Shown here one piece after another: positions 11,836 to 30,833 of a stretch of DNA of 64,000 bases. The stretch is from Parvularcula sp. BBD 1991-13 (GTDB lineage Bacteria > Pseudomonadota > Alphaproteobacteria > Caulobacterales > Parvularculaceae): positions 186,001 to 250,000 of the forward strand of contig LYSZ01000001.1 of assembly GCA_001657385.1 (NCBI GenBank). Reading direction: 5' to 3'. The translations under genes were made by a program, and so were the position numbers. The notes under the pieces are model-generated. The model was not told where the DNA came from. It did not search any database and saw only the letters and a program-made list of their open reading frames with translations. Position 1 is the first letter of the stretch, and each line of letters starts with the position of its first letter.

Positions 11836-11873
11836 CCGGAACTCGATAATCCTTATACGGCGTTTCGCCCAGT

Positions 11874-11993
11874 GCGCGTTGCAGCGAAAGTGGCTCGCGG
11901 TTGATGGTTCCGGTCCATCAATTGCGTCCGCAACGCGCTTAAATAATTATTCAGAGCCGTTTGAATAAATCACATGAATGGCAAACGGTTCTA
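11874..11993 (-). repeat. Composite two-hairpin element, copy B
   Basis: Read on the minus strand, the element starts with the TAG stop codon of the PepSY-like gene. Hairpin 1 is AGAACCGTTTG / CAAACGGCTCT with an 18-base loop (11953-11992). An AT-rich linker ending TTAAGCG follows. Hairpin 2 has outer arms GCGCGTTGC / GCAACGCGC (11874-11882, 11930-11938) and inner arms TTGATGG / CCATCAA (11901-11907, 11915-11921). The order, linker and spacing match the plus-strand copy at 29664-29768, although most stem bases differ in compensating ways. Confidence 0.6.
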
Positions 11994-12470
11994 GCCGACC
12001 GATCCGTCGGAGACGAACAGGACGCGGCCGTTTTCGGCGATCTCGATCTCGAGCTGGCGGCCGTTATGCTCGCCTTCGAATTCGTAGACGTAATCGCGCC
12101 CGCCCTCGCGCACGGAGTATTCCACGTAGTCGGGTTCGAACCCGGCGGCGACCTCGTCGAGGGCCGCTTTGACCGCGCTCGGCGTCTGCGCGAAGGAAAT
12201 CTCCATTTCGATTTCCTGAATCGCGCCGCCTTCGGTGATGTCCACCTCGACATGCTGTCCGGCGCTGTTGAACGCTTCGAATTCGTAGATCAGGACGCCG
12301 CCTTCGAGCTCGGTCGAAACGCGGTGGAAGGTGACGCCGGGGACGGTGGTTTCGGCCTTGGCGATGATGTCCGAGGGCACGTCGTCAAGGGAGATTTCGG
12401 TTTGGGCGAAAGCGGCGGACCCAATAGCGCCGAAGGCGAGGGCCGCGAAGGCGGTAAGCGCGCGTGGCAT
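11991..12470 (-). CDS. Periplasmic PepSY-like domain protein
   Basis: This is a 159-residue secreted protein. A signal peptide covers residues 1-22 (MPRALTAF, Ala-rich core, ending AAFAQ). The mature part holds two beta-rich repeats of the PepSY-like type. Each has a short helix (DIIAKAETTVPG and AVKAALDEVAAGFEP) followed by strands such as GVLIYEFEAFNSAGQHVEVDI and RDYVYEFEGEHNGRQLEIEI. Domains of this kind bind or inhibit secreted enzymes or bind small ligands in the envelope; the partner here is unknown. The protein is strongly acidic. GGAG lies seven bases before the ATG. The stop codon is the first base triplet of the composite hairpin element, whose first hairpin could terminate transcription. 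Family assignment rests on repeat pattern and size. Confidence 0.75.
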   Translation of the reverse strand: MPRALTAFAALAFGAIGSAAFAQTEISLDDVPSDIIAKAETTVPGVTFHRVSTELEGGVLIYEFEAFNSAGQHVEVDITEGGAIQEIEMEISFAQTPSAVKAALDEVAAGFEPDYVEYSVREGGRDYVYEFEGEHNGRQLEIEIAENGRVLFVSDGSVG

Positions 12471-29084: not shown

Positions 29085-29600
29085 ATGACTGAACAGCCAG
29101 GCCATGTCCTGAAAGCCGGCGACCAGGACGCGCTCGCCTTTCGCTTCCGTCACCCGCTGGGCCGGGGCGGCTCGGAAATCGTCATGACCATGCTCGCCCG
29201 CGCGGCGGGCCTGACGCGGGTCGGCGTCAATCTCGCCCGCGTGCCGCCGGGCAAGGAAGCCTTTGTCTATCACCGCCACCACGCGGAAGAAGAGTGGGTC
29301 TACATCCTCGAAGGCGCGGCGCTGTCGGAGATCGACGGCGAGGCGCAGGCCGTCGGGCCGGGCGATTTCATCGCCTATCCCGCCGGCGTCGCCCATACGC
29401 TGAAAAACACGGGCGAAGGCGATCTTGTCTACCTCATGGGCGGCGAACAGACCGCGGTGGAGATCGCCGACTTCCCCCGTCACGGCAAACGCATTCTGCG
29501 CCGCGGCGATCATGCCGAGCTTGTCGATGCGGAGGCGTGCGAGGCGTTCGTTCCCGATCTCGAACCCGTCGGCAAGGGCCAGCGCGGTCGGCGTGGATGA
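29085..29600 (+). CDS. Cupin domain protein
   Basis: A 171-residue single-cupin protein. Cupin motif 1 is HRHHAEEEWVYILEGAALSEIDGE (His and Glu metal ligands) and motif 2 is VGPGDFIAYPAGVAHTLKNTG with the third His, so a metal site is intact. The GRGGSEIVMTMLARAAGLTRVGVN leader strand is typical of small cupins that act as sugar/amino-acid binding proteins or dioxygenase-like enzymes. It follows gatB after four bases and is very likely co-transcribed. The product and reaction are unknown. Confidence 0.85.
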   Translation: MTEQPGHVLKAGDQDALAFRFRHPLGRGGSEIVMTMLARAAGLTRVGVNLARVPPGKEAFVYHRHHAEEEWVYILEGAALSEIDGEAQAVGPGDFIAYPAGVAHTLKNTGEGDLVYLMGGEQTAVEIADFPRHGKRILRRGDHAELVDAEACEAFVPDLEPVGKGQRGRRG

Positions 29601-29663: not shown

Positions 29664-29768
29664 TAGAACCAATTGCGTTCGATGCGATTGACAATTGGCT
29701 CTGGATTCTTAAGCGGAGCGTGTTGCGAACCGCAAAACCGGCAATCCGCTTTTGCGGCGACACGCTCC
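29664..29768 (+). repeat. Composite two-hairpin element, copy A
   Basis: The element begins TAGAACC. Hairpin 1 pairs AGAACCAATTG (29665-29675) with CAATTGGCTCT (29692-29702) around a 16-base loop, with one A/C mismatch at the fourth position. The linker GGATTCTTAAGC follows. Hairpin 2 pairs GGAGCGTGT (29715-29723) with ACACGCTCC (29760-29768), and inside it CCGCAAAA with TTTTGCGG (29730-29737, 29750-29757) and CGG with CCG around CAAT. It lies between the cupin and cysteine synthase genes, ending 27 bases before the ATG. A second copy with different stems is on the minus strand at 11874-11993. Confidence 0.65.
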
Positions 29769-29795
29769 AGGCAGTCCCGCAACCTGGGAGTTATC

Positions 29796-30833
29796 ATGAA
29801 ACACGACTCCATTCTGGGCGCCGTCGGCAATACGCCGGTGATCCGCATCAATCGCCTGGCGCCGGACGGGATCAATCTTTACGTGAAGTTCGAGGCGTTC
29901 AACCCGCTCGGATCGGTCAAGGACCGGCTCGCCCTCGGCGTGATCGAGGCGGCGGAAAAGACCGGCGCGCTGAAGCCCGGCCAGACGGTGATCGAGGCGA
30001 CGAGCGGCAACACCGGCATCGGCCTCGCCATGGTCTGCGCGGCGAAGGGCTATCCGCTGGTGGTGACCATGGCGGAGACGTTTTCGCTGGAGCGCCGCCG
30101 GCTGATGCGGTTTCTCGGCGCGCGGGTGATCCTGACCCCGAAGGAGGAGAAGGGCACCGGCATGGTGGAGAAGGCCAGGGAACTCGCCGCCGCCCATGGC
30201 TGGTTCCTGACCCGCCAGTTTGAGAACGACGCCAATCCGGACATGCATGAGCGCACGACGGGCCGCGAGATCGTGGACGCCTTCAAGGGCGAGACGCTCG
30301 ATTACTGGGTGACCGGCTTCGGCACCGGCGGCACGCTGACCGGCGTCTCCCGCGTTCTCAAGCGGGAAAGCCCGGACACGAAAATCGTGGTCTGCGAGCC
30401 GCCGGAAGCGCCGATGATTGCGTCCGGCGTTCCGCAGGAGCGCAACGCGGACGGCGGTCCGGCGACGTCGCACCCGGCCTGGAAACCGCACCCGATCCAG
30501 GGCTGGAGCCCGGATTTCATCCCGAAAATCGCCTCCGAGGCGATCGACGCCGGGGTCATTCACAAAATCGTCGAGACGCCGGCCGCCGACGGCATGGCGT
30601 GGGCGCGCGCGCTGGCCCGCAAGGAAGGGATTTTCACCGGCGTATCGGGCGGGTCCACCTTCGCCGGGGCGATGCAGATCGCCGAAGCGGCGCCGACGGG
30701 GTCGACGATCCTCTGTATGCTGCCCGACACCGGCGAGCGGTATCTTTCAACGCCGCTGTTCGGCGACGTCGCCACGGAGATGACGGAAGAAGAGATCGAG
30801 ATTTCCCGCTCCACGCCAGGATATCAGCTCTGA
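29796..30833 (+). CDS. cysK: Cysteine synthase family PLP enzyme
   Basis: A 345-residue fold-type II pyridoxal-phosphate enzyme that should make cysteine from O-acetylserine (or a related beta-replacement substrate) and sulfide. Lys42 in NPLGSVKDRLA binds PLP, EATSGNTGIG is the substrate loop, and GFGTGGTLTGVSR binds the cofactor phosphate. It is longer than the usual about 310 residues because of an insertion around GVPQERNADGGPATSHPAWKP ahead of the conserved HPIQGWSPDFIPK, a variant seen in some proteobacteria. GGGAG lies five bases before ATG 29796. Downstream motif GVSGGSTFAGAMQIA and LPDTGERYLSTPLF are normal. The synthase role is likely, though a cystathionine beta-synthase-like or other role cannot be excluded. 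Confidence 0.92.
   Translation: MKHDSILGAVGNTPVIRINRLAPDGINLYVKFEAFNPLGSVKDRLALGVIEAAEKTGALKPGQTVIEATSGNTGIGLAMVCAAKGYPLVVTMAETFSLERRRLMRFLGARVILTPKEEKGTGMVEKARELAAAHGWFLTRQFENDANPDMHERTTGREIVDAFKGETLDYWVTGFGTGGTLTGVSRVLKRESPDTKIVVCEPPEAPMIASGVPQERNADGGPATSHPAWKPHPIQGWSPDFIPKIASEAIDAGVIHKIVETPAADGMAWARALARKEGIFTGVSGGSTFAGAMQIAEAAPTGSTILCMLPDTGERYLSTPLFGDVATEMTEEEIEISRSTPGYQL

Follow-up and report, generated by a model that had tools for sequence, protein, structure and literature searches.

A dispersed two-hairpin repeat with an IS630-like end and its likeness to the CIR repeats of alphaproteobacteria

Two copies of a composite two-hairpin repeat, here called A and B, occur in the window, that is in the whole analysed stretch of 64,000 nucleotides, part of a 4.24-Mb genome. 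The arms of the two copies differ while their pairing appears to be kept, which raises the question of whether such a sequence is a mobile miniature element, a transcription attenuator or a structured RNA, the three readings offered by the original prediction. The repeat is very probably a non-autonomous DNA transposon (MITE) of the IS630/Tc1-mariner type, to be grouped with the CcrM-associated intergenic repeats (CIR) of alphaproteobacteria (Chen and Shapiro 2003, via the consulted part of Delihas 2007, PMC2229807).

The two window copies and their family

Both copies are found as predicted, together with their gene context: copy B opens with the TAG stop of a PepSY-domain gene and copy A sits upstream of cysK, between a cupin gene and cysK (Table 1). 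The pattern TAGAACCNNNTGN{5,30}CANNNGGCTC occurs twice in the window and never in 100 shuffles, and both copies fold better than all of 200 shuffles, with z values of -5.5 (A) and -3.8 (B) as written and of -6.7 and -5.1 on the other strand, where the A/C mismatch of hairpin 1 reads as G-U. This mismatch, predicted to be a shared feature, is indeed present in both copies; it is no trait of the family, as the position is G (TAGAGCC) in 54 and A in three of the 57 alignable copies of the same genome, and the mismatch of the window copies is a G-to-A change. The 3' TA has decayed in A and B alike (extents are set by the outer TA marks), and copy B has in addition lost both of its GANTC sites. In copy A the loop of hairpin 1 reads GATTG at the place where intact copies have GANTC, and the linker site is kept.

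Table 1. Positions, in the window, of the two repeat copies, their parts and the neighbouring genes
Feature	Position	Strand	Remark
Putative CIR-like MITE, copy A	29664..29769	+	5' TA to decayed 3' end (GCTCCA)
Copy A, hairpin 1 including terminal T (TAGAACCAATTG..CAATTGGCTCT)	29664..29702	+	
Copy A, linker GANTC (GATTC), CcrM-type site	29704..29708	+	just 3' of hairpin 1
Copy A, hairpin 2 (GGAGCGTGTTGC..GCGACACGCTCC, inner CCGCAAAA/TTTTGCGG)	29715..29768	+	
Putative CIR-like MITE, copy B	11870..11993	-	subfamily with arms GTTTG/CAAAC
PepSY-domain gene	11991..12470	-	TAG stop supplied by copy B; PF03413, E 1.1e-8
Cupin gene	29085-29600		5' neighbour of copy A
cysK	29796..30833	+	3' neighbour of copy A

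A covariance model (R1) built from A and B alone returned 73 matches at E<=10 in their own genome, including 62 at E<0.001 that represent 61 distinct places, the surplus match being an overlap on the other strand. Ten or more structured matches had been proposed as the sign of a dispersed family, and the genome thus passes that mark amply. Of the 27 further genomes of the genus, 17 also match R1 at E<=1 (18 of 28 when its own is counted), G009 with 21 matches; at class level the model matched only four of 190 genomes, its own included, its reach there being limited by the two-sequence model and stricter filters. A blastn search of plasmids (words of 11) with copy A as query gave no match, and Rfam gave none, at the gathering threshold, to the element in the window or in 20 chosen loci. 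Three loci (L013, L015 and L016) that show the hairpin-1 pattern alone, without linker or hairpin 2, were taken as chance. Two other candidates, a group II intron domain V (GAGCC..GGUUC with G-U) and an integron attC, were set aside after inspection by eye: a matching upper helix is absent, the arms have the wrong orientation, and Rfam gave no match.

Intact copies measure about 105-125 bp and read, hairpin 1 first, (C/T)TAGAGC-arm-loop-arm-GCTCTA-linker-hairpin 2-GCTCTA(G/A), hairpin 2 often containing the core AAAACCGGNNNNCCACTTTT. Only 12 of the 63 own copies (the 61 places at E<0.001 and two at E 0.01-0.02) retain TA at both ends. Several of them (L029, L042, L043, L045 and others) carry an extra partial repeat of the 3' arm of hairpin 1, with a loop or linker about 16 bases longer, as if the arm had been duplicated. 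The core was found at no fewer than 80 loci (>=80) in named genomes. Among the matches listed, the complete layout was recognized by eye in Caenispirillum (L214, L229, L245, L272), Rhodospirillaceae (L237, L251, L264), Mesorhizobium (L215), Afifellaceae (L220), Hyphomicrobiaceae (L256), Bradyrhizobium (L265), Xanthobacteraceae (L270) and Parvularculaceae (L284), and many further Rhizobiales matches among those listed have hairpin 2 alone or a degenerate hairpin 1. The listed matches to AAAACCGGNNNNCCACTTTT in other phyla look like chance, apart from L282 (labelled Marinimicrobia), where hairpin 2 ends in CTAG.

Pairing between and within subfamilies

The original prediction held that the stems covary and that selection acts on structure. 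Covariation between subfamilies is indeed strong: in an alignment of 63 matches, fitted to the structure, comparing subfamilies and including a few loci on both strands, 92.3% of cells are paired and 19 of 20 pairs show double changes, a level reached by none of 500 shuffles. Among the 51 own copies of a single subfamily the picture is different: 14 compensatory changes compare with an average of 10.7 under permutation (767 of 5000 runs reach this count), and 476 of 561 cells are paired where permutation gives 474.7 (1962 of 5000 as high). When a second subfamily is added, giving 57 copies, double changes that keep pairing rise to 25 against 13.5 expected (0 of 2000 as high), and this rise is a signal between subfamilies. 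As there is no excess of pairing among the 51 resident copies, their changes correspond to plain decay, and nothing was found that keeps pairing after landing. The covariation part of the prediction therefore stands and the maintenance of pairing among resident copies does not. We infer that every hairpin originated when a transposon end was duplicated in inverted orientation; new arm pairs would then appear together, and families would be unlike each other and yet seem to have kept their pairing. The case is a caution against taking covariation in dispersed hairpin repeats as proof of a selected RNA.

The same data bear on the idea of a family of structured regulatory RNAs or attenuators with pairing under selection and an incidental spread. 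Such RNAs would account for the family-level covariation, the stable folds and the intergenic location. Indeed, of the 30 own copies (out of 63 in all) that have long flanks, none is spanned by a gene predicted with a purpose-made simple gene caller. Mean coding cover is 0.06 over these 30 and 0.77 over intervals nearby; only copy A has a high value, which is due to an over-extended cysK start. Against the RNA reading stand the free decay of pairing among the 51 resident copies and the lack of any Rfam match; the TA-bounded ends and nested insertions described below would also be unexpected under it. Moreover, neither A nor B has a terminator-like site on either strand, and T-runs of at least five in the linker zone occur in five of 98 copies, which leaves attenuation unsupported at the window copies. 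By eye, the element of copy A was seen upstream of cysK in none of 26 other genomes of the genus, so that copy A looks like a local insertion. A structured RNA or attenuator kept by selection is accordingly quite improbable, and the evidence turns instead to an IS630-type MITE.

Target site and IS630 elements with the same end

In G009, one subfamily has inserted twice into copies of another, and the joined flanks show what the target was. At the first nested site (L113, identical in place to L169), joining the flanks by a single TA restores an outer copy to which six uninterrupted copies align across the junction; a single TA stands there in L062 (89%), L075 and L064, and other letters occupy that dinucleotide in L061, L179 and L181. 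Similarly, the joined flanks of the second site (L178), again with one TA, match L062 (90%), L075 (89%) and L181 (87%), all three with a single TA at the junction. The target was thus a single TA that is now duplicated, as read from these two sites, both in G009 and neither in the genome of the window. Duplication of TA is characteristic of the IS630/Tc1-mariner group. The preferred target can be read from intact termini among the 63 own and 35 genus rows (one genus locus being present twice): the base before the 5' TA is Y in 33 of 33 own and 28 of 28 genus copies (61/61), and the base after the 3' TA is R in 31 of 32 and 25 of 25 (56/57). An empty site for copy A was sought in other members of the genus, whose cysK upstream regions were too diverged to align, and the neighbourhood of copy B gave weak partial matches in other genomes.

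These findings bear on a second alternative, in which the repeat would be a REP/BIME-type palindrome moved by a RAYT (IS200/IS605-like, HUH) transposase that recognizes single-stranded hairpins. Two hairpins whose structure is better kept than their sequence between subfamilies would suit such an element. Both nested sites, however, duplicate TA, and to our knowledge HUH transposition gives no TA duplication. In addition, the foot of the hairpins here is CTAGAGC and lacks the GTAG or CGTC tags reported for large REP groups (consulted part of PMC3733652), so that movement by a RAYT appears highly improbable.

The IS630-type reading draws on transposons that carry the same end. Genes with PF13358 (DDE_3) were found in three of eight genus genomes searched, and the congeneric transposase ORFs match the NCBIfam model transpos_IS630. 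The two congeneric elements for which both ends were found are bounded by TA; L184 ends in TAGAGC.. and TAGCGC.., L185 in TAGAGC.. on both sides, and each has a GANTC at 22 on the transposase-side end. In both, the transposase consists of two overlapping ORFs, as if expressed by frameshift (L184:1414-2410; L185:385-1153). That no DDE_3 (IS630) gene was detected in the window's genome (97.95% complete) counts against the IS630 reading, and suggests that the copies of this genome are relics.

Elements of the same kind occur on plasmids and across the class. A related ORF was present in 926 plasmid records, and 14 elements fetched from 40 of these comprised 11 from alphaproteobacteria and three from elsewhere. 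TAGAG stands at both ends in six of the 11, five of which have GANTC exactly 22 in on the transposase-side end, the sixth being the TAGAGC element of Methylobacterium (L337). Two others (L328 and L335) have diverged tips and still carry GANTC at this place, no ends could be recognized in the remaining three (L329, L330 and L334), and the TAGAG tip is absent from the three non-alphaproteobacterial controls. In an even class-wide sample, DDE_3 was found in 50 of 190 genomes, and nine of 22 scannable loci (30 fetched) have TAGAG at both ends. These nine are 1015-1060 bp long. On the transposase-side end all of them carry GANTC at 22; on the other end that position never has it, and three have a GANTC at 7. 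The N of the nine sites is A in six and G, C and T in one each; such freedom to vary points to a methylation site and not to a fixed word. For seven of these elements at least one of 20 shuffles equals or beats the inverted-repeat score, and the assignment of the ends consequently rests on tips, length and GANTC together. A GAATC at 21 occurs on the other end of L327 and of the fragments L186 and L187, so the restriction of the site to one end is not absolute. Stretches from a survey of G170, G244, G119 and other genomes, many of them picked by their GANTC pattern, were left out of these counts.

The tip and the offset, TAGAGC-N16-GANTC, are thus common to the repeat and to many alphaproteobacterial IS630 elements. 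The closest single match between MITE and transposon joins L060 (G016) to L185 (G009), with 13 of 14 and 14 of 15 bases identical at the two ends. In L060 position 22 holds no GANTC, both strands match the model, and the likeness to the transposase-side end lies in the hairpin-2 end and not in hairpin 1; confidence in the IS630 reading is slightly lowered because this best match departs from the GANTC layout. Long shared ends were found for the L060 type only: no IS630 was found with an inner end equal to that of the window's own subfamilies, nor any with long ends equal to those of an abundant CIR of the same genome (G170, G244, G119 and others).

A different transposase that duplicates TA or YTAR, of the IS5/IS427-like kind, could be imagined as the mover. 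IS5-type targets also fit the YTAR preference, and PF13340 genes were found in G009, G016 and G022 (three of six genomes searched). Yet the TAGAGC-N16-GANTC layout is common to the repeat and IS630, and the window's genome has no PF13340 gene, which makes an IS5-type mover unlikely in our judgement. The mobile miniature element of the original prediction is hence supported, by its dispersed copies, by the duplication of TA and by matching transposon ends. In the mechanism that we propose from these ends, an IS630-type transposase made elsewhere would recognize TAGAGC../..GCTCTA, cut the repeat out and insert it at YTAR with duplication of the central TA; an IS630 enzyme is, judging from the letters of the ends, the probable mobilizer.

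GANTC sites and likeness to known repeats

Counted from the T of the terminal TA, the GANTC of hairpin 1 often has a fixed offset of 22, and the linker holds a second one at 39-42. Among 35 genus rows (34 distinct loci, one present twice) the loop site, at 21-23, occurs in 22, against 0.43 on average and 4 at most when the first 60 bases are shuffled, with A in 14, G in five and T in three at the variable base; among the 63 own copies, 22 have GANTC at 21-23 and 16 have the linker site. This GANTC is best read as coming from the transposase-side end of IS630. The genome encodes a CcrM homologue (ORF L371, with N6_N4_Mtase and RAMA domains) that matches the CcrM model at E 1.5e-185 and scores below its curated cut-off (616 of 830 bits).

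CIR have been described as intergenic sequences of about 110 bp with two inverted-repeat arms and a linker, GANTC in the terminal loop and TA termini, present in alphaproteobacteria (consulted part of PMC2229807), and the consulted part of a 2024 MITE review cites them as strictly intergenic. The present family fits CIR in every published feature that could be tested, the likeness being one of description. Size and layout agree, the loop GANTC is present in the frequencies given above and lost in A and B, none of the 30 copies checked lies inside a predicted gene, copy B supplies a stop codon, and the host has the CcrM homologue with the sub-threshold score. The difference lies in mobility: here TA duplication and an IS630-type end were found, whereas for CIR the target duplication is entered as '?', the mechanism is left open and more information on mobility is called for (same source). 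CIR have been linked to CcrM since 2003 with no known way of moving (PMC2229807, in the part consulted), and neither the 2007 nor the 2024 review, in the consulted parts, names a transposase for them. Titles and abstract openings in the literature surveyed gave no link of CIR, or of GANTC, with IS630 or its ends; the original CIR and RIME reports might state one. The family is thus known in kind, and what is new is the proposed way of moving and the likely origin of the CcrM-type site.

Other intergenic palindromic elements of like description occur in the alphaproteobacteria. The RIME and ABC intergenic mosaic elements of rhizobia and BRU-RS of Brucella measure about 100-110 bp. RIME and the AB/C motifs are named in the portion of the literature consulted. 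Among the stretches inspected, those of Mesorhizobium (L215) and Bradyrhizobium (L265) have both hairpins in the usual layout and the core AAAACCGGNNNNCCACTTTT, that of Brucella (L243) has a degenerate hairpin 1 and that of Rhizobium (L211) hairpin 2 only. L243, from Brucella gallinifaecis, and L266 share a variant core, AAAACCGGTAAACCACTTTT, with a degenerate hairpin 1, and copies of this type may be the Brucella CIR of the literature. More distant is RUP of Streptococcus pneumoniae, a 107-bp MITE with a TA target and IS630-Spn1 as proposed mover, thus similar to the present family in small size, target and suggested mover; it differs by its outer terminal inverted repeat of 9 bp, by the absence of a listed DNA motif and by its host, a member of the Firmicutes (consulted part of PMC2229807).

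The position of the site allows a tentative extension, which we hold with less than even confidence. By analogy with Dam for IS10 and IS50, alphaproteobacterial CIR could be MITEs of a CcrM-gated IS630 group, in which a GANTC 22 inside the transposase-side end, with any base at N, would tie transposase expression or end use to methylation after passage of the fork and so couple transposition to the cell cycle. Expression of the IS50 transposase is regulated by Dam at two GATC sites (consulted part of PMC4265352). IS50 and IS10 resemble the present IS630 ends in having adenine-methylation sites at the transposase promoter, here GANTC at 22 and often a second; they differ in relying on Dam and GATC, where the IS630 ends would rely on CcrM and GANTC. 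If this extension is true, the 'CcrM association' of CIR would be an inherited transposon regulation and not a control of host genes. CIR-like repeats occur in many alphaproteobacteria, and with the TA duplication, a partner transposon and a methylation site common to both, their mobility and its coupling to the cell cycle can be put to a direct test.

On the transposase-side ends of the IS630 elements the second GANTC is often at 33-36, 11-14 bases past the first, an arrangement reminiscent of the pair of GATC sites in the IS50 transposase promoter. The end type itself is widespread: in 190 genomes, YTAGAGC-N16-GANTC has 792 matches against 155 for a reversed control, 33 genomes have at least five matches against one for the control, and 316 matches remain against 119 when the ten highest genomes are removed on each side. 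One 3.7-Mb member of the class, G170, has 192 matches against one for the control, an exceptional expansion of this end type.
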